IMG/VR virus record: IMGVR_UViG_3300030060_000636
Coordinates: 1-26,284 of that record
Direction: 5' to 3' (one strand)
Source of the DNA: a virus
Length of the DNA stretch: 26,284 nucleotides
Shown here: piece by piece, positions 2,209 through 24,409 of the stretch
Numbering within the stretch: the stretch's first letter is position 1
Layout of the letters: each line of letters begins with the position of its first letter
The notes under the pieces: model-generated
Database searches by the model: none
What the model was told of the DNA's origin: nothing
Seen by the model: the letters and a program-made list of their open reading frames with translations, nothing else
Translations under genes and position numbers: made by a program

Positions 2209-3420
2209 TTACATGTTGCTTGACTTGACGTGGACTGTGATACCGCAGTCCGGCTTGGCACTGTCGTTGTCGATGACAACCCACAGCACAGGGCATGACC
2301 ACTGACCCCACGACCCACCAAGATAGCCATCGGTAATCACGATAACAGCTTGTGGTGTGATGTGCTTGTTGGTCATGTATTCGGGGACACACTCGACGGA
2401 TGTACCGCCACCACCCTTGGGGCGCGTGGACTGGATCATGGTGTCGAGTTCGTGCATCTCGTACCGCTCGTCCTGACACACTTGGGTGTCCCAGTACAAC
2501 AGACGTACGGCCTCGGGATGCACAGTGTCGGCGATGGACTTGATCTCGGTCAGTGCCACGGCAACCTCGCGGTCACCGATAGATGCTGACATGTCAGTGG
2601 CAATCACTAACTCGTCCACACGCTCGGAGATACCGCTTGGCAGATACACGCCACTGGACATGAAACGTCTGTTGGGTCTGCGCCACGTCGAGTAGTCACT
2701 GCCCAGACAGGTGGAAGTGATGAAGTCACGCATGACCTCGCGCCAATCGACTTGCGGCTGGAGCAAGTCCTGCAAGTCACGGTCACCGCCTGTGCCCATC
2801 TTGCCAGCGATCAACGCACCCTGACGTATTGCCTCGTCAATGTCGCGCTCCAGCTCGCGTTGCTCGTCGGCGGTCATGTCTTGTGCGCCCTCGAAGTCGT
2901 GTTCGTCCAGCGGTTGACCGCCACCGCCGTCACCGTCGCCACCGTCACCACCTTCTTGTGGTGGGTCTTGCTTGAGCAGATTGAAGACTTGAGCCGTGTC
3001 CATGCCACGATACTTCTCGTCATAACAACCTTTGGTGAGTGGGCCTGTCATGGTAGCGAAGCCGTCTTGCTTGTTCTCGTCAACGATTTGCAGGTTGATG
3101 ACATAGTCCATGGCCATGTTGGCAAGGCGTGGGTTCTCGTCCCACAGATGCTTCCAAGTCTTGAGATGGCGATACAGCTTGTGGCGAACCTCATGCAGGA
3201 TAAGGAAGCGGAACTCTGGATCGTTGAGACTGTCACAGAACGTACGTCCATACACCTCGTCACGTCCGTTGGTGTAGGCTGTTGGCGCTGTCTCGCAGAT
3301 ACGCTTCTCGCCCAGCATGAGGACACCAGCCAGCGCGACATATCTGTCCTTGCCCATGATATCGACCACACACTTGTTGAGCCGTTGCTCGGTGGTCAGT
3401 TGCTTACCGATAGATAACAT
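2209..3420 (-). CDS. VWA-domain protein with HExxH metallopeptidase-like N-terminus
   Basis: This 403-aa protein combines two recognisable parts. Residues 76-80 are HEVRH, an HExxH zinc-peptidase signature, followed by a conserved-looking NMAMDYVIN segment. A Gly/Asp-rich linker (about 155-172) leads to a C-terminal von Willebrand A domain with a complete MIDAS: DMSAS (276-280), Thr340 in a GGGGT loop and Asp364 in VITDG. The architecture matches the 'putative metallopeptidase plus VWA-like' family (DUF2201 type, from memory). Such proteins often pair with MoxR/CobS AAA+ ATPases, and here that ATPase is the immediately upstream gene. The start at 3420 follows AAAGGAC. Likely role: substrate adaptor or protease partner of the ATPase; the target is unknown. 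Confidence 0.88.
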   Translation of the reverse strand: MLSIGKQLTTEQRLNKCVVDIMGKDRYVALAGVLMLGEKRICETAPTAYTNGRDEVYGRTFCDSLNDPEFRFLILHEVRHKLYRHLKTWKHLWDENPRLANMAMDYVINLQIVDENKQDGFATMTGPLTKGCYDEKYRGMDTAQVFNLLKQDPPQEGGDGGDGDGGGGQPLDEHDFEGAQDMTADEQRELERDIDEAIRQGALIAGKMGTGGDRDLQDLLQPQVDWREVMRDFITSTCLGSDYSTWRRPNRRFMSSGVYLPSGISERVDELVIATDMSASIGDREVAVALTEIKSIADTVHPEAVRLLYWDTQVCQDERYEMHELDTMIQSTRPKGGGGTSVECVPEYMTNKHITPQAVIVITDGYLGGSWGQWSCPVLWVVIDNDSAKPDCGITVHVKSSNM

Positions 3421-3465: not shown

Positions 3466-3482
3466 GTTAGTGAAGCACTAAC
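3466..3482. promoter_or_regulatory. 17-bp palindrome, copy 2 (GTTAGTG-AAG-CACTAAC)
   Basis: Perfect 7+3+7 inverted repeat at the junction of the ATPase and VWA genes. Its last base overlaps the stop codon of the ATPase gene (3482-3484), and it sits 46 nt upstream of the VWA start, ahead of the GC-rich leader hairpin. Confidence 0.85.
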
Positions 3483-4576
3483 TATTTCTTGTCAGCCGCG
3501 AACATATAGTTGTTGTCCATGGCCCACTGAGTGAACTTCTTGTTGGTCATAACAAGTGACTGCTTGGAATACTTGGGGGCGCGTACGCCATTGGCGAACA
3601 TACCCTGTGCTTCCTTGTCGAGCCTGACGAGATAATCCATCCATGGATCGACCCAATCTCTCTCCAAAGATGCTAGGGTGCGATACACCACCATGCAGAT
3701 CCCGGCGGCACTGTTTGGCACCTTGGCGTTCTTGGGGTCTTGCTTGATCGACTCGGCACTCGGTAGCTGGTCAGCCAGCTTGACAAACGCCATCAAGTCC
3801 ATGGCACCACGCTCACCGATAGTGCCCATGAGTGCGGCTGTCACAGTCTGATCGTCTAGTCCATCCCGCGCTTTGAGTATGTCACTCGCCGCTTCCAACG
3901 AGCGGGGTGTAACAAACGCGGCTCTCTGTTGCTTGGGATGGAAGATGTACGGATTGTCGTCGGGGTCTTTGACGTCCTCGAACGAGTAGAATAGTTGCGG
4001 GTTGTCTTTACACCAGCCCAGTAGCGTGTGGTCGATTTCATTGTTGATACCCCATTCGATCCATTCCATGTTGGTAGGTTTGCGTGTCTGCACGACAGTC
4101 ATGCGGTTGCGAGCGTGTGGTGGTAGCAAGTCACCGACACCCTCGGAACCTTTGTTGGTCGTGGCAAAGATTATGCTGTCAGGGTGTAGCGTGTAGCTAC
4201 CGATCTTGCGCTCCAGTATGAGACGCAACAGTGCGTTCTTGACCGCAGGGTTGGCCTTGCCGAACTCGTCAATCATGATGATGACAGGCGTGTTGTTGTG
4301 CGCGCCCAGTTCCTCATTGGTCAGGTAAGTCACATACCCTGTGCCATCGTCCAGCTTGGAGATGTTGGGTATGGTGATGTCACCCAAGTCCTTGGTCGTG
4401 CAGTCGAAGTAACACGGTGTGTGGTCAGGCAGTGCCTTGGCAAGCACGGTAAGAAGCGTTGACTTGCCTGTGCCCATGTCACCCTGCACAAGTATGGTGC
4501 GTAGTGCGCCAGACTTACGGATCAGAGCCTCGACTTGGTCAAGTCCCAGTGCATACATTGTCGTTGCTGTATTCAT
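3482..4576 (-). CDS. MoxR/CobS-type AAA+ ATPase
   Basis: A 364-aa AAA+ ATPase. With the start used here, Walker A is GDMGTGKS (32-39), Walker B IIMIDE (99-104), the sensor-1 region FATTN (to about 141), and a candidate arginine finger lies in PPHARNRM (about 153-159). The order and spacing fit the MoxR/CobS/dynein-related clade, which remodels protein partners, usually with a VWA protein. The next gene downstream encodes such a VWA protein. An ATG at 4588 would add four residues, but the ATG at 4576 has GGAG 6 nt upstream whereas 4588 has no ribosome-binding site, so 4576 is preferred. A 17-bp palindrome (4601-4617) lies in the leader. Confidence 0.9.
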   Translation of the reverse strand: MNTATTMYALGLDQVEALIRKSGALRTILVQGDMGTGKSTLLTVLAKALPDHTPCYFDCTTKDLGDITIPNISKLDDGTGYVTYLTNEELGAHNNTPVIIMIDEFGKANPAVKNALLRLILERKIGSYTLHPDSIIFATTNKGSEGVGDLLPPHARNRMTVVQTRKPTNMEWIEWGINNEIDHTLLGWCKDNPQLFYSFEDVKDPDDNPYIFHPKQQRAAFVTPRSLEAASDILKARDGLDDQTVTAALMGTIGERGAMDLMAFVKLADQLPSAESIKQDPKNAKVPNSAAGICMVVYRTLASLERDWVDPWMDYLVRLDKEAQGMFANGVRAPKYSKQSLVMTNKKFTQWAMDNNYMFAADKK

Positions 4577-4600
4577 GATAGTCTCCATTTCAAGAGTTGT

Positions 4601-15050: not shown

Positions 15051-15959
15051 ATGGCTATTTCACGCGCACAACTACTGAAAGAACTCCTTCCCGGCCTGAA
15101 CGCTTTGTTCGGATTGGAGTACGCAAAATACGGTGAAGAACACGCAGAGATCTTCGAGACAGAGACCTCTGATCGCTCTTTTGAGGAGGAGACCAAATTA
15201 TCGGGCTTCTCAGCAGCACCAGTCAAAAACGAAGGCTCCGCCATCGAGTATGACAATGCACAAGAGGCGTTCACCGCTCGCTATACACACGAGACTGTCG
15301 CAATGGGCTTTTCAATCACTGAAGAGGCTATTGAAGATAACTTGTATGACTCACTGTCAGCTCGTTATACGAAGGCACTCGCTCGTGCTATGGCGTACAC
15401 AAAGCAAGTCAAGGCAGCGACTATCCTTAACAATGCCTTTTCTAGCGGCACTACATACGGCGACGGCGTAGAGCTTTGCTCCACGGCTCACCCGCTTGTT
15501 AGTGGCGGAACCAACTCTAACGAGCCTGCAACACCGGCTGATCTTAACGAGACTTCTCTGGAAGCCGCCGTTATTCAGATTGCTGGTTGGACTGACGAGC
15601 GCGGTCTGCTGATTGCTGCAAGGCCACGTAAGTTGATTATCCCACCGAACCTGCAGTTTGTTGCAACTCGCTTGCTGGAGACCGAAGGACGCGTGGGTAC
15701 AGCGGATAACGACCTTAATGCGCTTCGCAATAATGGTTCTATCCCCGAAGGATATACGATCAATCACTATCTGACAGATACTGATGCGTTCTTCCTTCTG
15801 ACTGACGTTCCAAATGGCCTGAAGCACTTCGTACGTAGCCCGATGGCTACCGCTATGGATGCTGACTTCAGCACTGGCAACAGCCGGTACAAGGCCCGTG
15901 AGCGTTACTCATTCGGTGTATCCGATCCACTGGGCATCTTCGGATCGCCCGGAGCATAA
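15051..15959 (+). CDS. Major capsid protein (HK97-fold likely)
   Basis: A 302-aa protein with the features of a phage major head subunit: an N-terminal helix (LLKELLPGLNALFGLEYAKY), the segment FETETSDRSFEEETKLSGFS (about 34-54), a central KNEGSAIEYDNAQ region followed by GFSITEEAIEDNLYD, and a spine-helix-like run (about 102-130). The pattern resembles Mu gpT-type HK97-fold subunits, though I have no alignment. It follows a strong ribosome-binding site (AAGGAGGGG) and is followed by an intrinsic terminator, both fitting a highly expressed protein. It could be confused with another abundant head protein, but none of its neighbours fits better. Confidence 0.85.
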   Translation: MAISRAQLLKELLPGLNALFGLEYAKYGEEHAEIFETETSDRSFEEETKLSGFSAAPVKNEGSAIEYDNAQEAFTARYTHETVAMGFSITEEAIEDNLYDSLSARYTKALARAMAYTKQVKAATILNNAFSSGTTYGDGVELCSTAHPLVSGGTNSNEPATPADLNETSLEAAVIQIAGWTDERGLLIAARPRKLIIPPNLQFVATRLLETEGRVGTADNDLNALRNNGSIPEGYTINHYLTDTDAFFLLTDVPNGLKHFVRSPMATAMDADFSTGNSRYKARERYSFGVSDPLGIFGSPGA

Positions 15960-16850: not shown

Positions 16851-17456
16851 ATGGGCCACAGCTCAGATATATCAGCAAAATTCATCAGTGATGAAAATGC
16901 GTCAGATGACGATCGTCTGGTAACCGCTGCCAGACCAAACACTAGCGCAACCATGGCTAACACCACCTTTGCAGGAGGAGGTGCTAGGAATGTTATTGTC
17001 ACAACCACAGGCACGGGTGACAACGCTAAGACTTGCACAATCACAGGCACAGATGTTTTTGGCAACGCCATGACAGAAGTAATAACTTCTACTGGTAGTG
17101 CTGAAGCTGTGGCAGGCACTAAGTTGTTTCTCACAGTGACCGCAGTAGAATGCTCTGCGCAGTATGCTGCTAACATCAAGGTTGGATCTGGCAGTCTTTG
17201 TGCGGAAGCAATTAATGGTAGCAACAGGGTGCGGTTGAAAGGCTTCTCCATAGTCTCTGGTGGTTCATCTGGAGTTGTAGAGTTCTTCAACAATACTCCA
17301 GAGAATGGATCTGCCCTCTTCAAGTCTCGCACCATAGGCACCGACAACACCACATTGGACAGGACCATCCCAGCAGATGGTGTTCTGTTTCAAGACGGTA
17401 TGTCGGTCAAGTACACTGTGGCTACCGTAGACATGATGACATTCTTCCATGGCTAG
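16851..17456 (+). CDS. Putative virion structural protein, 201 aa
   Basis: A 201-aa Thr/Ser/Gly-rich protein, likely beta-structured, with a C-terminal part (about residues 128-200: KGFSIVSGGSSGVVEFFNNT, then TIPADGVLFQDGMSVKYTVA) that resembles a small beta-sandwich module seen in phage virion proteins. TAAGGAG precedes the ATG. The stop overlaps the start of the basic protein gene by 8 nt. Specific role unknown; structural by context. Confidence 0.7.
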   Translation: MGHSSDISAKFISDENASDDDRLVTAARPNTSATMANTTFAGGGARNVIVTTTGTGDNAKTCTITGTDVFGNAMTEVITSTGSAEAVAGTKLFLTVTAVECSAQYAANIKVGSGSLCAEAINGSNRVRLKGFSIVSGGSSGVVEFFNNTPENGSALFKSRTIGTDNTTLDRTIPADGVLFQDGMSVKYTVATVDMMTFFHG

Positions 17457-17739
17457 GCGTAAAGGCACCATGAAAGGTCATACCATCAAGGGTGGGCACA
17501 AGCGGCCCACCAAGTCTGGTGCGGGTATGACAGCGAAAGGTGTCGCCAAATATAGAAGAGACAATCCCGGCAGTAAGTTAAAGACTGCCGTCACTGGTAA
17601 AGTAAAACCCGGTAGTAAGGCCGCAAAGCGTCGTAAGTCGTTCTGTGCCCGCAGTGCTGGACAAATGAAGAAATTTCCGAAGGCTGCTAAAAATCCTAAT
17701 TCAAGACTACGGCAGGCGAGGAAGAGATGGAAATGTTGA
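17449..17739 (+). CDS. Small very basic protein 1 (96 aa)
   Basis: 96 aa with about 32 Lys/Arg and a single acidic residue by hand count. The central motif GVAKYRRDNPGSKLKTAV followed by KPGSKAAKRRKSFCARSAG is one I recognise from an uncharacterised family in phages (a DUF, number not certain). There is no ribosome-binding site; the start overlaps the preceding stop in ATGGCTAG, so it is translationally coupled. The charge suggests binding to DNA or RNA, and the position among structural genes suggests a packaged or assembly-linked protein. Not a ribosomal protein that I can identify. Confidence 0.8.
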   Translation: MARRKGTMKGHTIKGGHKRPTKSGAGMTAKGVAKYRRDNPGSKLKTAVTGKVKPGSKAAKRRKSFCARSAGQMKKFPKAAKNPNSRLRQARKRWKC

Positions 17740-18414
17740 ATGCCGTATTTACAGTCAAATATACCTCACTTTAACGCATGGGTTCGTAGGGAGTACACTA
17801 AGAACCTAGAGGAATATCATGGCGAGTTTCTTCATGCCATGGTGGTTGCTGTAACTACGATGCCGAATCGTACTCTAAGTTTCCAAGTCATATTTACTGG
17901 TTGCGAGTCAGATGACACTGATGAGCCTAATGTGCATGGTGGCGCAATGTGGGCGCGTATGCCCCTCACAGCGCTTGTGGCAGACACACCGTACGAGCAG
18001 TGGCCCACAGAGCTACCGCCCTACCTAGCACAGCCATGGGACTGCATGTCCCATTATCACGCGGTTTACAAGATAGAAAGAGCATCACCTGCACCTTGGA
18101 TTGCCAAGGTAGATGGTGAGTTCTACCCTGCTAAGTATTACTTCACCGTGGACTACACGGACAGTGAGGTGGCAGATCATCCTGCACAACACAAGCAGAG
18201 TCATGTATTAGAGCTGCTGGACGCAGGAGAGTATACAGGCAACATCGTAGCGTTGCCGAACAATCGGGTGCGAGTCACGCATCCTGCATGGTTTGAGACA
18301 GGGCAGGGCGCGCCCGACTTCAGACCAAACCAACATACCTTCAACTCAAAAGAGGATGTGGGGTATGTGTGGGATACTGAGCGCGTGTTCAACAACCTGT
18401 ATAAGGATGAGTAA
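17740..18414 (+). CDS. Hypothetical protein, 224 aa, Trp/Tyr/His-rich
   Basis: A 224-aa protein rich in aromatic residues, His and Pro, with PPYLAQPWDCMSHYHAVYKI near residues 92-111. It begins at the base after the preceding stop codon, so it is coupled to it, and sits inside the island of basic proteins while being itself near-neutral or acidic. No signal, membrane segment or enzyme motif. It may be a partner of the basic proteins or a structural component; sequence alone does not say. Confidence 0.75.
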   Translation: MPYLQSNIPHFNAWVRREYTKNLEEYHGEFLHAMVVAVTTMPNRTLSFQVIFTGCESDDTDEPNVHGGAMWARMPLTALVADTPYEQWPTELPPYLAQPWDCMSHYHAVYKIERASPAPWIAKVDGEFYPAKYYFTVDYTDSEVADHPAQHKQSHVLELLDAGEYTGNIVALPNNRVRVTHPAWFETGQGAPDFRPNQHTFNSKEDVGYVWDTERVFNNLYKDE

Positions 18415-18415
18415 A

Positions 18416-18877
18416 ATGAAGATGATGATGAAAAAGAAAAAGGGCATGGCCAAAGGCGGCATGACCAAGAAGGGCTACAAGATGGGTGGCATGACCAAGA
18501 AGGGCTATCAAGTGGGCGGCATGGCCAAGAAGACAAAGAAAAACCCGATGAAGGGTGGTCTTATGGATGCAATCGCCCAAGTGGACAAAGAACAGAAAAA
18601 GCCTAAGCCCAAGCCCAAGCCCAAGACTGATAGGCAGCTCATGCAGATGAGAGGCGGCGGCATGGCCAAAAAGGGCATGGCTGCTGGTGGCATGATGAAG
18701 AAGAAGGGCATGGCCAGAGGTGGCATGACTAAAAAAGGCATGGCCAAAGGCGGCATGACCAAGAAGGGCTACAAAAAGGGCGGTAAGGTCCGTGGTGTAG
18801 GCATCGCTTCTAAAGGTTTTCGCCCTGCAAAAATGGTCACGATGTCCAAGGGTGGCAAAAAGGGTGGTAAGAAGTAG
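18416..18877 (+). CDS. Low-complexity Lys/Gly/Met-rich protein 2 (153 aa)
   Basis: 153 aa with about 48 Lys/Arg and about 4 acidic residues by hand count. It is made of repeats of the type KGGMTKKG[YM] and GMAKKG, a KPKPKPKPK stretch, and the C-terminal motif VRGVGIASKGFRPAKM. The chosen ATG at 18416 has AAGGA upstream; ATG 18407 would add three residues. Longer frames overlap the preceding gene. Probably intrinsically disordered and able to bind nucleic acid or acidic surfaces. Repeats at DNA level (38-bp exact copies) make length changes likely. Confidence 0.75.
   Translation: MKMMMKKKKGMAKGGMTKKGYKMGGMTKKGYQVGGMAKKTKKNPMKGGLMDAIAQVDKEQKKPKPKPKPKTDRQLMQMRGGGMAKKGMAAGGMMKKKGMARGGMTKKGMAKGGMTKKGYKKGGKVRGVGIASKGFRPAKMVTMSKGGKKGGKK
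18443..18774 (+). repeat. 38-bp exact direct repeat in the low-complexity gene
   Basis: 18443-18480 and 18737-18774 are identical over 38 bp (GGCATGGCCAAAGGCGGCAT followed by GACCAAGAAGGGCTACAA). A third partial copy follows the first (18487-18510, ending GGGCTATCAA). Such repeats allow slippage or recombination that changes the number of KGGMTKKG units. Confidence 0.8.
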
Positions 18878-19167
18878 TGGCAAAGCGTAGGGATCCAAAA
18901 GTTGGCACAGGAAAAAAGCCAAAAGGATCAGGACGTAGGCTCTACACTGATGAAAACCCTAGAGATACAGTTGGAATTAAATTTGCTACTCCAGCAGATG
19001 CTAGAGCGACAGTCGCAAAAGTTAAGAAAGTTAGAAAGCCTTTTGCAAGAAAAATTCAAATCCTGACCGTAGGCGAACAAAGAGCCAAAGTGATGGGTAA
19101 GACTGAAGTTGCAAAGATCTTTCGACAAGGCAAGGAAAGCATAAGGAGGGCTAGAAAAAATGCCTAA
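18877..19167 (+). CDS. Small very basic protein 3 (96 aa)
   Basis: 96 aa with about 29 Lys/Arg by hand count. The N-terminal motif RRDPKVGTGKKPKGSGRRLY then TDENPRDTV is one I recognise from an uncharacterised family present in phages and some large viruses. It starts at GTG 18877, sharing one base with the preceding TAG stop. It ends overlapping the next gene by 8 nt (ATGCCTAA). The amount of charge and lack of a hydrophobic core suggest a nucleic-acid binding role. Confidence 0.78.
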   Translation: MAKRRDPKVGTGKKPKGSGRRLYTDENPRDTVGIKFATPADARATVAKVKKVRKPFARKIQILTVGEQRAKVMGKTEVAKIFRQGKESIRRARKNA

Positions 19168-19432
19168 AGACGCTTGTTATCACAAGGTTAAAGCCCGCTA
19201 CAAAGTTTTTCCTAGCGCTTATGCTAGTGGGGCTATAGCTAAATGCAGGAAGGTTGGTGCTGCTAATTACGGCACTGGCGGCAAGAAAAAGAAGAAGAAG
19301 GCTGAAGGTGGTGTTGTGCGAATGTCCAATGGTGGTCTCGCTAGAAGGCGTAGAAAACGTGCTTCTAACAATCCTAATGTTGCTAGGGGTTGTGGGGTAG
19401 TCAAACGCCGCAAGGTTACAAAATACGTGTGA
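19160..19432 (+). CDS. Small very basic protein 4 (90 aa)
   Basis: 90 aa with about 27 Lys/Arg. Motif CYHKVKARYKVFPSAYASGA, then KCRKVGAANYG, followed by GGKKKKKKAEGG and ARRRRKRAS. The PSAYASG core is shared with an uncharacterised family of phages and large viruses in my memory. GGAGG precedes the ATG. Four Cys (residues 6, 29, 78 and possibly others) are too few and too spread to claim a zinc site. Confidence 0.78.
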   Translation: MPKDACYHKVKARYKVFPSAYASGAIAKCRKVGAANYGTGGKKKKKKAEGGVVRMSNGGLARRRRKRASNNPNVARGCGVVKRRKVTKYV

Positions 19433-19438
19433 GGCACC

Positions 19439-19720
19439 ATGGCTGTACGCAAAACCAAAAGCGGACTAGCGTTAAAGCGGTGGTTCAAAGAGGATTGGAA
19501 AGATGTACGCACTGGCAAGAAGTGTGGCAGACAAAAGGGTGAAAAGCGTGGAACTCCTTACTGCCGCCCTTCCAAACGGGTTTCTTCAAAGACTCCAAAG
19601 ACGGCGTCCGAGATGTCGTCCGCAGAGAAAAGAAAACGCATCAGCCAGAAAAAACGTCTTGGCCAACCAGCAGGTAAGCCGAGGCGGGTAGAGGCAGCAC
19701 GCCGGAAAAGGAAAAAATAA
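19439..19720 (+). CDS. Small very basic protein 5 (93 aa)
   Basis: 93 aa with about 35 Lys/Arg. The N-terminal motif KSGLALKRWFKEDWKDVRTG then KKCGRQKGEKRGTPYCRPSK contains two Cys and a Trp/Phe patch; the rest is a Lys/Arg-rich tail. The RWFKEDW...YCRPSKRVSS pattern recurs in uncharacterised phage proteins. Six nt separate it from the preceding gene, and the stop is followed at once by the start of the adaptor gene. Confidence 0.78.
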   Translation: MAVRKTKSGLALKRWFKEDWKDVRTGKKCGRQKGEKRGTPYCRPSKRVSSKTPKTASEMSSAEKRKRISQKKRLGQPAGKPRRVEAARRKRKK

Positions 19721-20401
19721 ATGGCTACGTCAGGCACCACCGCATTCAATATGGATTTCGCCGAGATCGCTGAAGAGGCGTGGGAGCGTGCGGGCCGTGA
19801 AATGCGTTCGGGGTACGACTTGGCTACCGCTCGTAGATCCATGAATCTGATGACTATTGAGTGGCAGAATCGTGGGATCAACATGTGGACGATCGACAGC
19901 GGCACCATATCTGTCGTTGCGGGCACGGCCCAGTATGACTTGCCTGCTGACACCATAGACCTTCTAGACCACGTTATACGCACAAATGCAGGCAATACAG
20001 CAACGCAATCCGATTTAACTATAACTCGTATCGGTGTCAGCACTTATGCCTCTATCCCTAACAAGTTAACGTCTGGTAGGCCAATACAAGTATTTGTAGA
20101 GCGTCTAGCTACACCTAGAATAAATCTGTGGCCCGTACCCGACACCACTTACACGTTTGTGTACTTCAGGATGCGCCGTATCGAAGATGCAGGTAACGGT
20201 GCGGAGACACCCGATGTGGTGTTTCGCTTTCTGCCTTGTTTGGTTGCTGGACTGGCATATCACATAGCCATGAAGGTGCCGGAGCTGGCTGGAAGAGTTG
20301 AAATGTTAAAAGCCGCGTATGATGAGCAGTACAATCTGGCTGCAGGTGAGGATAGAGAGAAGACGTCTGAACGGTACGTCCCGAGGGTGGCTAGGATCTA
20401 A
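19721..20401 (+). CDS. Head-to-tail adaptor, P22 gp4-like
   Basis: A 226-aa protein with the hallmark FNMDFAEIAEEAWERAGREM (about residues 9-28) and DLATARRSMNLMTIEWQNRG (33-52), then PVPDTTYTFVYFRMR-type strands; this matches the gp4-type packaged-DNA stabilisation/adaptor family seen in short-tailed phages. It would bind under the portal to close the head and receive the tail. Complete in length. The ATG follows the previous stop directly. The call is from family pattern, not an alignment. Confidence 0.72.
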   Translation: MATSGTTAFNMDFAEIAEEAWERAGREMRSGYDLATARRSMNLMTIEWQNRGINMWTIDSGTISVVAGTAQYDLPADTIDLLDHVIRTNAGNTATQSDLTITRIGVSTYASIPNKLTSGRPIQVFVERLATPRINLWPVPDTTYTFVYFRMRRIEDAGNGAETPDVVFRFLPCLVAGLAYHIAMKVPELAGRVEMLKAAYDEQYNLAAGEDREKTSERYVPRVARI

Positions 20402-20403
20402 TC

Positions 20404-20730
20404 ATGTCAAACAGATTTGCATCAACAAAACGAGCTATCGCGGAATGCGATATATGTGGGTTCCAATACAAACTCAAAGAATTGCGCAATATAATAAGAA
20501 AAGGTAATGATACTAATATAAAAGCATGTTACGAATGTTTTGATGGGGATCACCCACAGAATGAGTTAGGTATGTTTCCTGTTCATGACCCGCAGGCTAT
20601 TAGAGACCCTAGGCCAGACTTTGCAGGGTATGCAGCAAGCAGGGCATACATTTACTCTGGCTCGTTAGATAGCAAGCTAGAGTTTGTGATGACTGCATCT
20701 TTAGGTTCAGTCACAGTGTCAACTTCGTAG
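20404..20730 (+). CDS. Zinc-ribbon protein, 108 aa
   Basis: 108 aa with CDIC (Cys15, Cys18) and CYEC (Cys42, Cys45), spaced as in a zinc ribbon or knuckle, then a short DGDHPQNELGMFPVHDPQAI region and a Ser/Thr-rich C-terminus. The base composition is more AT-rich than its neighbours. It begins 2 nt after the adaptor stop. It could bind DNA or another virion protein; no more can be said. Confidence 0.75.
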   Translation: MSNRFASTKRAIAECDICGFQYKLKELRNIIRKGNDTNIKACYECFDGDHPQNELGMFPVHDPQAIRDPRPDFAGYAASRAYIYSGSLDSKLEFVMTASLGSVTVSTS

Positions 20731-20738
20731 GTACAACA

Positions 20739-20969
20739 ATGGCAATATCGAGGGCAAACATGAGCAAGCAAGTACAAAATCCTCCTTCTAAATATAAGGG
20801 ATTCTCCAAGCTACCAGAAGCTGTGCAGCAGAAGATAGACCCAGAGCTGGCTAAGACTTATAGCAATGGCGGCATGGTAAAATCTAAAGGTAGAGCCAGA
20901 GGGGGTATAAAAATTCGTGGGGCGGGTGCAGCCACCAAAGGGAATATGGCTCGCGGGCCTATGGGGTAA
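20739..20969 (+). CDS. Small motif protein, 76 aa
   Basis: 76 aa starting MAISRANMSKQVQNPPSKYK. The C-terminal third is GRARGGIKIRGAGAATKGNM, whose RGAGAATKG core is the same motif as RGVGIASKG in the Lys/Gly/Met-rich protein at 18416. Basic but less so than the island proteins. Lies in the operon between the zinc-ribbon and connector-like genes. Role unknown. Confidence 0.7.
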   Translation: MAISRANMSKQVQNPPSKYKGFSKLPEAVQQKIDPELAKTYSNGGMVKSKGRARGGIKIRGAGAATKGNMARGPMG

Positions 20970-20972
20970 GTT

Positions 20973-21617
20973 ATGAACTACACCAGCTTAAAAGCAAATG
21001 TGGAGGATGTCTGTGAACAGACGTTCACAGCAGATCAACACGCCCTGTTTGCACAGCAGGCAGAACAACTGATCTTCAACTCGGTTGAGCTGCCTGTTAT
21101 GCGTAATGTTGATAGCAGTAGTTTAACCGCTGGTAATGAGCTGTATACTACACCTGATGGGTATTTATACACCTATAGTTTAGCAATAGTAGATAATGAT
21201 ACTCAGACTTTCCTACTAAATAAGGACTCTAATTTTTTAAGAGAAGCATATCCTGTAACCACAACTGCTAAACGTGGGCTACCAAAGTTTTATGCTTACC
21301 ATAGCACTTCAGGTTCAAATGTAAGATTTATGTTTTCTCCAATCCCAGATGCTAATTATACATTAGAACACATCTACGCTAAGTATCCTACGTCTATAGT
21401 GACAGCGGGAGGCACCTATTTGGGGGATAACTTCGATACCGCGCTTCTTAATGGTGCTTTGATGGAAGCAATTCGGTTCCAGAAGGGCGAACCTGACATG
21501 GTTGCTCTATATGAAAAACGTTACTTGCAGGCCATAGCTTTGTTACAGCGCACTGGAGATGGCAAGCTGCGTCAGGACTACTACCGTTCAGGACAGGCAC
21601 GCACGCCTGTAGCATAG
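20973..21617 (+). CDS. Putative head-tail connector/neck protein
   Basis: A 214-aa protein with MNYTSLKANVEDVCEQTFTA and ADQHALFAQQAEQLIFNSVE (about residues 20-39) at its start, a pattern I associate with phage adaptor or neck proteins, then a beta-rich middle and a helical end ending in QARTPVA. GGGGTAAG precedes the ATG. It follows the gp4-like adaptor, which supports a connector role. Not certain. Confidence 0.65.
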   Translation: MNYTSLKANVEDVCEQTFTADQHALFAQQAEQLIFNSVELPVMRNVDSSSLTAGNELYTTPDGYLYTYSLAIVDNDTQTFLLNKDSNFLREAYPVTTTAKRGLPKFYAYHSTSGSNVRFMFSPIPDANYTLEHIYAKYPTSIVTAGGTYLGDNFDTALLNGALMEAIRFQKGEPDMVALYEKRYLQAIALLQRTGDGKLRQDYYRSGQARTPVA

Positions 21618-22111: not shown

Positions 22112-24409
22112 ATGGCAACACAGTTTAGCACTCTTCTAAAACTCGCACTGCCAGTTCAAGGTGAGCTGGCGGGTACGTGGGGAGACTTGGTGAACAACAG
22201 TGTCACCAATATGATAGAAGAGGCCATAGCGGGTTCCAAAACCATAAACACTTGGAGTGGTAACTCCGCTACATTATCCACCGCAGACGGTGCTACTGCC
22301 GAAGCTAGAGCTGCAATACTGAACTTAACTGACACTGGCACATCGTTATCTGGCGCAGCTACAGTCATTGTTCCTGCCCTCACCAAAATATTTATTGTAA
22401 AGAATGGCACCGCCCAGACAGTTACAGTAAAGACAGCATCAGGAACTGGTATCGCCATTCCTTCTGGTAGCACAGGGCATGTGTACTGTGATGGCACTAA
22501 CGTAGTCGAAAGTCAGAACTACGTTGCTGGCAACTTTGGAGTTGGTGGCAATCTTACAGTAACAGGCACTACCACGTTTAACGGCGGCACAGTAACTCTT
22601 GGTGACGCAAACACCGATAACATTGTGTTTGGTGGCGAAGTAGATTCAAACATTATACCTGATGATGACGGAGCTTATGATCTAGGTAGTTCTTCTAAAG
22701 AGTGGAAAGACATATACATTGATGGTGTAGCATACCTAGACGCCATTAACTTTAACGGCACAGCAATTACTGCTACTGCCGCAGAACTCAACATCATGGA
22801 TGGTGTCACCTCCACGGCTGCAGAACTTAATATTCTTGATGGTGTTACCTCCACAGCCGCAGAACTTAACATTGTAGACGGCGGCACATCTGCCACGTCA
22901 ACCACACTCGCCGACGCTGACCGCGTTGTTGTAAATGACAACGGCACAATGGTGCAGGTCGCACTCACTGACTTTGAAACATACTTTGAAAGCGCACTGG
23001 ACACGCTATCCAATGTGACGACGGTTGGAGCGCTTAATTCTGGTTCAATCACGTCTGGCTTCGGCACTATTGATACTGGCTCATCAACGATTACAACCAC
23101 GGGCCTTATCACTGGCGGATCATTAGACATTGACGATGTCGTAATTAACGGCAGCACTATTGGTCACACAGACGATACAGACCTCATCACTGTGGCCGAT
23201 GGCATAGCTACAGTCGCTGGAGAAATATCGGTCACCACACTCGATATTGGTGGCACAAACGTCACATCCACGGCAGCAGAACTCAACATCCTTGATGGTG
23301 TTACTGCCACCACTGCAGAGCTTAACTACAGTGACACGGGAGCATCTGTAGGTACGGTTGTTGCGAGCAAGGTCGTAACTGTAGATGCAAACAAAGATGT
23401 AGCCAGCTTCCGTAATATCACTTTGACAGGCGAGTTAGATGCAGGGTCGCTTGATGTGTCTGGTGATGCAGATATTGACGGCACACTTGAAGCCGACGCG
23501 ATTACAGTTAATGGGACAGCACTTAATACAGTTATCGCGGGAGTGACAGTAGCTAATTCCACTCTAGCCGCCACAGTCACTGTCGCCGATAGCACAGCAA
23601 ACACCAACTTCCCAGTTGTATTTCACGATGAGTCTAACGGACTTTTAGATGACACAGGTGCTTTACGCTACAACCCAAGCACAGGTGAACTTCTAGTACC
23701 TAAACTCACTGTAGCAGGCACTACAACCACTGTAGATACAGTGACTATGAACGCTCAGAACGCCATCGTCTTCGAGGGTGCCACTGCTGACGCTAACGAA
23801 ACTACACTGACTATTATAGATCCAACAGCAGATCATACAATCAACTTACCAAACGTATCAGGTACAATACCTGTGTTAGCTGCTGCAAGCACCACGGCCA
23901 TTACTTCTACACCGGAAGAACTTAATATCCTTGACGGTGTGACATCGACTGCTGCAGAGCTGAATATCCTTGACGGTGTGACATCGACTGCTGCAGAGCT
24001 GAACATCCTTGATGGCGTCACTGCAACAACAGCAGAACTAAACATCCTTGATGGTGTAACATCAACTGCTGCAGAGCTGAACATCCTTGATGGTGTAACC
24101 TCTACAGCCTCAGAACTAAATATCCTTGATGGCGTAACTGCCACAACAGCAGAACTTAACTATAGCGACACAGGCGCAGCAGTTGGCACAGTTGTAGCCA
24201 GCAAAGTTGTAACTGCTGACGCTAACAAAGACGTATCCAGCTTTAGAAATATCACACTGACAGGTGAACTTGATGCAGGTTCACTAGATATTTCTGGGGA
24301 TGCAGATATTGATGGGACGCTAGAAGCAGATGCAATCACGGTCAATGGTACTGCGTTAAACACAGTAATCGCTAACGAGGCTACAGCCCTTGCTATTGCG
24401 TTAGGCTAA
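22112..24409 (+). CDS. Large repeat-rich tail fibre protein
   Basis: 765 aa. After an N-terminal attachment region (1-130) the chain is Thr/Ser/Asp/Gly-rich and consists of 13-residue TAAELNILDGVTS-type units: three near 222-260, one or two near 386-406 and seven at 600-680. Residues 399-476 and 677-754 form an internal duplication with 74 of 78 identical positions. Such repeats are common in marine phage fibres and should form an extended beta-structured trimer that contacts the host. The last 11 residues differ (NEATALAIALG). No signal peptide. GTGAGG lies upstream of the ATG. Confidence 0.85.
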   Translation: MATQFSTLLKLALPVQGELAGTWGDLVNNSVTNMIEEAIAGSKTINTWSGNSATLSTADGATAEARAAILNLTDTGTSLSGAATVIVPALTKIFIVKNGTAQTVTVKTASGTGIAIPSGSTGHVYCDGTNVVESQNYVAGNFGVGGNLTVTGTTTFNGGTVTLGDANTDNIVFGGEVDSNIIPDDDGAYDLGSSSKEWKDIYIDGVAYLDAINFNGTAITATAAELNIMDGVTSTAAELNILDGVTSTAAELNIVDGGTSATSTTLADADRVVVNDNGTMVQVALTDFETYFESALDTLSNVTTVGALNSGSITSGFGTIDTGSSTITTTGLITGGSLDIDDVVINGSTIGHTDDTDLITVADGIATVAGEISVTTLDIGGTNVTSTAAELNILDGVTATTAELNYSDTGASVGTVVASKVVTVDANKDVASFRNITLTGELDAGSLDVSGDADIDGTLEADAITVNGTALNTVIAGVTVANSTLAATVTVADSTANTNFPVVFHDESNGLLDDTGALRYNPSTGELLVPKLTVAGTTTTVDTVTMNAQNAIVFEGATADANETTLTIIDPTADHTINLPNVSGTIPVLAAASTTAITSTPEELNILDGVTSTAAELNILDGVTSTAAELNILDGVTATTAELNILDGVTSTAAELNILDGVTSTASELNILDGVTATTAELNYSDTGAAVGTVVASKVVTADANKDVSSFRNITLTGELDAGSLDISGDADIDGTLEADAITVNGTALNTVIANEATALAIALG
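22775..22891 (+). repeat. Fibre repeat block 1, three 39-bp units
   Basis: Three consecutive 13-codon units encoding TAAELNI[MLV]DG[VG]TS. The codons vary between units although the protein is nearly constant. They form the first block of the fibre's shaft-like repeats. Confidence 0.8.
23909..24142 (+). repeat. Fibre repeat block 2, six 39-bp units
   Basis: Six in-frame 13-codon units (residues 600-677) encoding T[PATS][AES]ELNILDGVT[SA], followed by a seventh that leads into the NYSDTGA duplication. Two adjacent units are almost identical in DNA, which allows expansion or loss by recombination. Confidence 0.85.

Follow-up and report, generated by a model that had tools for sequence, protein, structure and literature searches.

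Bacteriophage T4 produces basic internal proteins (IPI, IPII and IPIII), which are present in about 300 copies each, bind DNA under low-salt conditions, and of which many are ejected (PMC9026906). The other described system of relevance is T4-GC119, a cluster of "hypothetical" cyanophage proteins, which receives no more than a passing mention in the accessible part of its source, as a hypothetical protein belonging to a mobile cassette (PMC3037559). Here we describe an island of small, extremely basic proteins encoded at positions 17449-19720 of the IMG/VR virus record IMGVR_UViG_3300030060_000636, which represents a marine phage. The whole 26,284-base record (GC content 0.50) was analyzed and is referred to as the window. 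The proteins are designated, with the start positions of their genes, B1 (17449), B3 (18416), B4 (18877), B5 (19160) and B6 (19439); N2 (17740) is a further protein encoded within the island and b7 (20739) is encoded downstream of it. Judging from sequence comparisons, it is more likely than not that the island encodes internal head proteins, and that it represents, in the form of single genes, the cargo specified by T4-GC119. As such, it would work like the internal proteins of T4.

A slot for basic proteins in the head gene block

The five island proteins (90-153 amino acids, aa) contain 30.0-37.6% Lys+Arg (B1 33.3%, B3 31.4%, B4 30.2%, B5 30.0% and B6 37.6%), with net charges of +31, +44, +21, +25 and +28, respectively, and isoelectric points (pI) of 11.1-12.0. 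The products of the remaining genes of the structural operon have at most about 16% Lys+Arg, with the exception of b7 (20%, pI 10.9). Three of the starts overlap a preceding gene: B1 starts 8 bases within the gene that ends at 17456, the start of B4 overlaps the preceding stop by one base, and B5 starts 8 bases within the gene that ends at 19167. A preliminary description of this DNA had pointed to five extremely basic open reading frames (ORFs), tightly packed with overlapping stops and starts, which agrees with these data, whereas N2, regarded there as neutral, is an acidic protein (pI 5.0).

The island forms part of a late block located on the + strand and comprised of genes for TerL, the portal, a GroES-like co-chaperonin, a presumed scaffold, the capsid protein (15051), two small genes and the island itself, followed by a tandem pair of SU10-type adaptor genes (19721 and 20973). 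The two members of the pair are separated by the gene starting at 20404 and by that of b7. The nearest cultured relatives, as judged by the terminase, are the Pelagibacter phages HTVC027P (45% identity) and HTVC023P (44%).

The interval from the capsid gene to the first adaptor gene, here termed the slot, constitutes 6% of the genome. Of the 33 ultra-basic ORFs (at least 50 aa, at least 28% Lys+Arg) present in 10 related, near-complete genomes, 27 fall within it, and these ORFs are thus clustered beyond chance (Fisher p 1.6e-25, a value that overstates independence, since the genomes are related). We also inspected 106 loci with both anchors, some of them overlapping, in which a slot ORF was counted as basic at 25% Lys+Arg or more. 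The slot holds from zero to six basic ORFs, and at least two in 91 of these loci. B1 is present in 92 loci, B6 in 71, B5 in 66 and B4 in 20, while B3-like proteins were counted in 32, a figure that is soft owing to their repeats. B1, B5 and B6 co-occur in 59 loci. The check proposed in the preliminary description, whether all five genes stay together in related phages, gave the full set in only 6 of the 106 loci, and joint travel of the five was therefore rejected. Based on these counts, conservation applies to the slot and to the type of protein encoded there, and not to the exact gene set. In HTVC023P the homologs of B1, B5 and B6 are gp43, gp51 and gp52. In HTVC027P, by contrast, the slot is devoid of the set, and a run of basic genes that includes relatives of B5, B6 and B1 (gp49, gp50 and gp52) is located between the portal and GroES genes. 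Both phages are cultured on the SAR11 strain HTCC1062.

Further cargo genes, whose presence varies across the loci, are found between the basic genes. N2, present in 27 of the 106 loci, is probably one of them. Its labels conflict: phrog_3704 is named "ferredoxin", and HTVC023P gp44, at the same place, is annotated as PurM, as is HTVC027P gp11.

Relationship of four island proteins to a single cyanophage polypeptide

B1, B4, B5 and B6 are homologous to domains of a single cyanomyovirus polypeptide, T4-GC119 (S-SM2 ADO97451, Bellamy gp123 and S-SCSM1 QFG06285), in which the shared domains follow the order B4-B6-B5-B1. This relationship, which concerns four of the five island proteins, is new and had been missed in the preliminary description. 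The first hint of a fusion was that B5 and B1 match one PHROG profile (phrog_727, phrog_3477). Hidden Markov model (HMM) comparison with T4-GC119 proteins gave E-values of 1.8e-37 for B1 (matching their C-terminal domain), 1.1e-25 for B5 and 1.2e-16 for B4. Using hhalign, B4 was aligned with the N-terminal domain (98.3%, E 2e-14, 41% identity) and B6 with a domain containing the motif LRDWF (97.2%, E 3.8e-11; control domains below 1%); for B6, the cyanophage proteins were reached by this profile-profile comparison but not with a plain HMM.

The proteins of S-SM2 (708 aa) and Bellamy (618 aa) contain, in order, B4, the B6-like LRDWF domain, DUF192, B5, a CWxGY module, further sequence and B1; DUF192 thus lies between the B6-like and B5 domains in both (L247, 1578-3704, and L250, 1848-3704, respectively). 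Among named phages and 80 IMG/VR loci, the fused form B4-B5-B1 occurs in 20 proteins and B5-B1 in 55, and the B6-like domain is located upstream of B5 in 69 of 83 proteins. Like the island, the T4-GC119 gene is placed within the head and packaging block, in several cyanophages between terS and terL. It differs from the island in that (i) it encodes one polypeptide, of 172-1006 aa among the members examined, and not separate ORFs, (ii) its products contain the additional modules DUF192 and CWxGY as well as protease-like sites, and (iii) the members examined have no C-terminal tail of the kind described below. Separate genes of the B1, B5 and B6 types are grouped in the unrelated phages P-SCSP2 (adjoining one another between the scaffold and capsid genes), CRP-7 (adjoining one another just ahead of TerL) and HTVC027P. 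Proteins found fused in one lineage and side by side in others usually work together, and we infer the same for B1, B4, B5 and B6. In the Roseobacter phage CRP-901, a B5-like stretch is present in the unannotated gap between gp67 and gp68 (about 41350-41451 of OQ401623.1; L244).

B1 and B6 belong, above the curated cut-offs, to the Pfam families DUF6321 (PF19846; E 4.8e-13, 50 bits against a cut-off of 28.5) and DUF5872 (PF19197; E 6.2e-15, 56.3 bits against 27.5, profile positions 49-111 of 116), respectively, whereas B5 remains below the DUF5872 cut-off (16 against 27.5 bits). B3 has no match in Pfam, PHROG or NCBIfam. Neither Pfam family states a function, the PHROGs carry none, and an exact-string literature search for DUF6321 gave no match, in line with the earlier view that these families are uncharacterized. 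Both proteins contain invariant Cys pairs (C66 and C96 in B1, C29 and C42 in B6). The AlphaFold2 model of B1 is helical (predicted local distance difference test, pLDDT, 82.5) and that of B6 is weaker (pLDDT 73.4). A Foldseek search of the PDB with the two models (the B6 model at pLDDT 73) revealed no fold match. In a viral structure library the B1 model matched phage DUF6321 proteins, including the S-SCSM1 virion protein; the other entries retrieved with the B1 and B6 models were few, and unnamed or weak. A PDB sequence search with B1, B5 and B6 retrieved no natural relative, only weak matches of B1 to designed helical proteins, and known DNA-binding proteins were matched neither in sequence (B1, B5, B6) nor in fold (B1 and B6 models). 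As far as these searches show, the island proteins resemble protamine-like or histone-like DNA-condensing proteins in basic composition only: the term "protamine-like", used in the preliminary description, is apt in that respect, but B1 and B6 represent conserved domain families, each with an invariant Cys pair and a predicted folded structure.

A C-terminal tail specific to one virion type

A new feature identified in this study, and missed in the preliminary description, is a C-terminal tail that is specific to this virion type and is shared by otherwise unrelated proteins. Its consensus, RGxG[AI]Axx[KR]G..., runs to the stop codon; it ends B5 and b7 and is less clean in B3. A loose form of the motif gave 162 matches in the 3,597 non-identical ORFs taken from the loci. 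Of these matches, 140 are placed within 14 residues of the C-terminus, against an expectation of about 4 obtained by shuffling the last 40 residues. The most numerous tail-bearing proteins in the loci are those of the B5 class (52/140), and relatives of b7 occur in many loci.

Scanning of the viral collection with two DNA patterns, both blind to position, yielded at least 208 readable matches, and the following counts apply to the matches listed. The tail lies within 12 residues of the stop in 203 of 208 cases, with an exact distance of two residues in 97/108 and, for the form RGxGAATKG, of eight residues in 93/100. After removal of the last 25 residues, 183 protein bodies fell into 72 single-linkage clusters (in which distant relatives may be split), the largest being the b7 family (63). 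Structural genes of the same virion type are present in 141 of the 143 tail contigs, in which the median distance from the tail to the nearest head gene is 497 bases. Three contigs encode a DUF6321 (B1) protein in which the tail follows the Cys that is normally the last in the domain.

The tails occupy two slots: capsid-to-adaptor and the gap ahead of the second adaptor gene. In 12 near-complete genomes nearly all of them are located within the structural block, one, in G003, lying beyond the fiber gene; in the cultured phage HTVC023P two proteins, gp32 and gp51, carry the tail. Conservation extends to residues that the search pattern did not specify, whereas third codon positions are variable, which indicates conservation at the protein level; for the same reason, a DNA-level element is not favored. 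An exact-string search of the literature for the tail motif gave no match, and the one b7-type protein tried matched no phage record.

We tentatively suggest, as a possibility open to considerable doubt, that the tail is a head-loading signal of the HTVC023P-like virion type, and that any protein ending with it may enter the capsid. Such a signal would make cargo genes exchangeable in fixed operon slots, and would be a C-terminal counterpart of the N-terminal capsid-targeting peptide of T4.

Proposed internal head proteins and alternative explanations

According to the explanation that we favor, the island proteins would be expressed late, alongside the capsid protein, and taken into the head as separate cargo, the tail helping to load its carriers. 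They would sit against the packaged DNA and probably exit the head with it at infection. T4-like cyanophages would make the same cargo set as one chain, probably cut by the head protease at least at some junctions. For the phage of the window, we infer virion presence, DNA binding, ejection and the loading role of the tail from these comparisons. The place and use proposed for the island proteins are those of IPI, IPII and IPIII, which are likewise small, basic and encoded with head genes, a likeness claimed independently of sequence comparison. The capsid-targeting N-terminal peptide is present on none of the island proteins of the window, in contrast to the T4 system, and membership in the T4 internal-protein group is therefore not claimed.

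The suggestion of internal virion proteins, made in the preliminary description, gains partial support from the fixed place in the head block and from three observations on cyanophages. The S-SCSM1 protein QFG06285.1 (B6-B5-B1) carries the label "virion protein". In this phage, 45 proteins were detected by mass spectrometry in CsCl-purified virions (PMC9602691); the label appears on 48 coding sequences of the record (MK867354.2, L335-L339) and is absent from both terminase subunits and some baseplate genes, so it follows detection closely, but not exactly.

The second observation concerns proteolysis. The T4 head protease gp21, which processes T4 head proteins, cleaves after L/I-x-E (PMC9026906). 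In 56 dereplicated cyanophage proteins, 38 of the 47 CWxGY modules and 20 of the 49 B5 domains have this motif ahead of them, against 4.7 and 5.8, respectively, expected from shuffled linkers, and the controls L/I-x-D, -K and -Q show no excess at either place. A Glu is found within 6 aa of the B1 start in 31/31 proteins. The capsid protein of S-SCSM1 contains FLAE|A at residue 58, comparable in place to the propeptide of T4 gp23 (65 residues; PMC9026906). A strict L/I-x-E motif at every domain junction fails, enrichment being found at two of the four tested, and a looser count allowing V, M and F, without dereplication, was set aside. Processing of T4-GC119 is thus suggested at some junctions only, and a fully processed polyprotein is not claimed.

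The third observation is the N-terminus of the P-SSM7 member of T4-GC119, MKTYSQFIEE, which we take to resemble the capsid-targeting peptide of T4. N-termini resembling this peptide are also present on small proteins encoded just 3' of T4-GC119-type genes in S-RIM2 (MKSYKQFMSES; L242, 6630-6956), S-SCSM1 (MKTFKQFMSES; L241, 8216-8536) and S-SKS1 (MKNFKQFLSES; L251, 4293-4601).

Several points weigh against this explanation. The S-SCSM1 label, given its imperfect match to detection, is no proof, and a basic protein could co-purify as a contaminant. The L/I-x-E motif is not enriched ahead of B1 (2/31, 2.2 expected) and not clearly so ahead of B6 (4/36, 2.0 expected), and the targeting-like N-terminus occurs in only one (P-SSM7) of the 89 distinct proteins examined from cyanophages. 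Of the window genes searched, none was recognized as encoding a separate head protease. B3 gave no match to a cyanophage protein by HMM, and the tail is missing from B1, B4 and B6 in the window and consequently cannot be the sole loading signal. We found no virion proteome for the window phage type; the accessible parts of the S-SM1 and S-CREM2 proteome papers contain no usable statement on T4-GC119, and that of the HTVC027P transcriptome paper does not state the expression time of gp49-gp52.

The possible co-purification with S-SCSM1 particles, the lack of direct virion data for the window phage type and the basic composition by itself would also fit late intracellular proteins that bind phage or host nucleic acid (in genome compaction, or by binding ribosomes or RNA) without forming part of the virion. 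We consider this rather unlikely in view of the labeled S-SCSM1 homolog, the protease-like sites at two domain junctions, the N-terminus of the P-SSM7 protein and the confinement of the tail to one virion type. Assembly factors acting in the head (as partners of the scaffold, helpers of the adaptor or portal, or decoration proteins), whose charge would serve protein contacts and not DNA, might account for the constant place beside the capsid and adaptor genes, and the basic T4 protein IPIII also influences head assembly (PMC9026906). However, the variation from zero to six basic ORFs per slot does not suit an essential stoichiometric part, and the set of HTVC027P is located elsewhere; this role therefore appears quite improbable.

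As regards the tail, it may reflect ordinary family descent or basic sequence of low complexity and, in either case, have no function in itself, an interpretation compatible with each of the above readings of the island. The size of the b7 cluster, the origin of nearly all carriers from one virion lineage and the splitting of distant relatives by single linkage are consistent with it. We nevertheless regard it as unlikely, since the matches listed include 71 other body clusters, the distance to the stop codon is fixed, third codon positions vary next to conserved residues that the pattern does not require, the tail has been added to DUF6321 domains in three contigs, and the matches in the loci far exceed those in the shuffles.

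If the island does encode internal head proteins, it names a cargo set for these phages, offers a possible role for a "hypothetical" gene across hundreds of cyanophage records, links separate podovirus genes with a fused protein of T4-like phages, and provides a short sequence tag for recognizing further head cargo in metagenomes.

Table. Positions of the island genes, tails and anchor genes within the window.
Feature	Position	Strand	Description	Basis
Major capsid protein	15051..15959	+	upstream slot anchor	phrog_371 major head protein, E 6.5e-21
B1	17449..17739	+	96 aa, DUF6321 domain	Pfam PF19846
N2	17740..18414	+	acidic protein within the island	pI 5.0
B3	18416..18877	+	153 aa, KKGMAKGGMTKKGY-type repeats	sequence
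Tail-like sequence of B3	18788..18838	+	VRGVGIASKGFRPAKMV, 12 residues ahead of the stop	read in sequence
B4	18877..19167	+	96 aa, GTG start	hhalign and HMM to T4-GC119
B5	19160..19432	+	90 aa, DACYxKVKxRY..PSAYASGAIxKCRK domain and C-terminal tail	phrog_727, phrog_3477
Tail of B5	19382..19429	+	C-terminal, ARGCGVVKRRKVTKYV	read in sequence
B6	19439..19720	+	93 aa, DUF5872	Pfam PF19197
First SU10-type adaptor protein	19721..20401	+	downstream slot anchor	Pfam PF24175, E 2.9e-15
b7	20739..20969	+	76 aa, sixth small basic protein, between the adaptor genes	composition
Tail of b7	20913..20966	+	C-terminal, IRGAGAATKGNMARGPMG	family motif RGxGAATKG
Second SU10-type adaptor protein	20973..21617	+		Pfam PF24175, E 7.2e-17

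Two other regions of the window were noted. The minus strand encodes, at 2209-3420 and 3482-4588, what appears, as judged from the translations, to be a pair comprised of a VWA-type protein and a MoxR-type ATPase. The gene at 22112-24409 encodes an acidic, fiber-like protein of 765 aa with many TSTAAELNILDGVT-type repeats.

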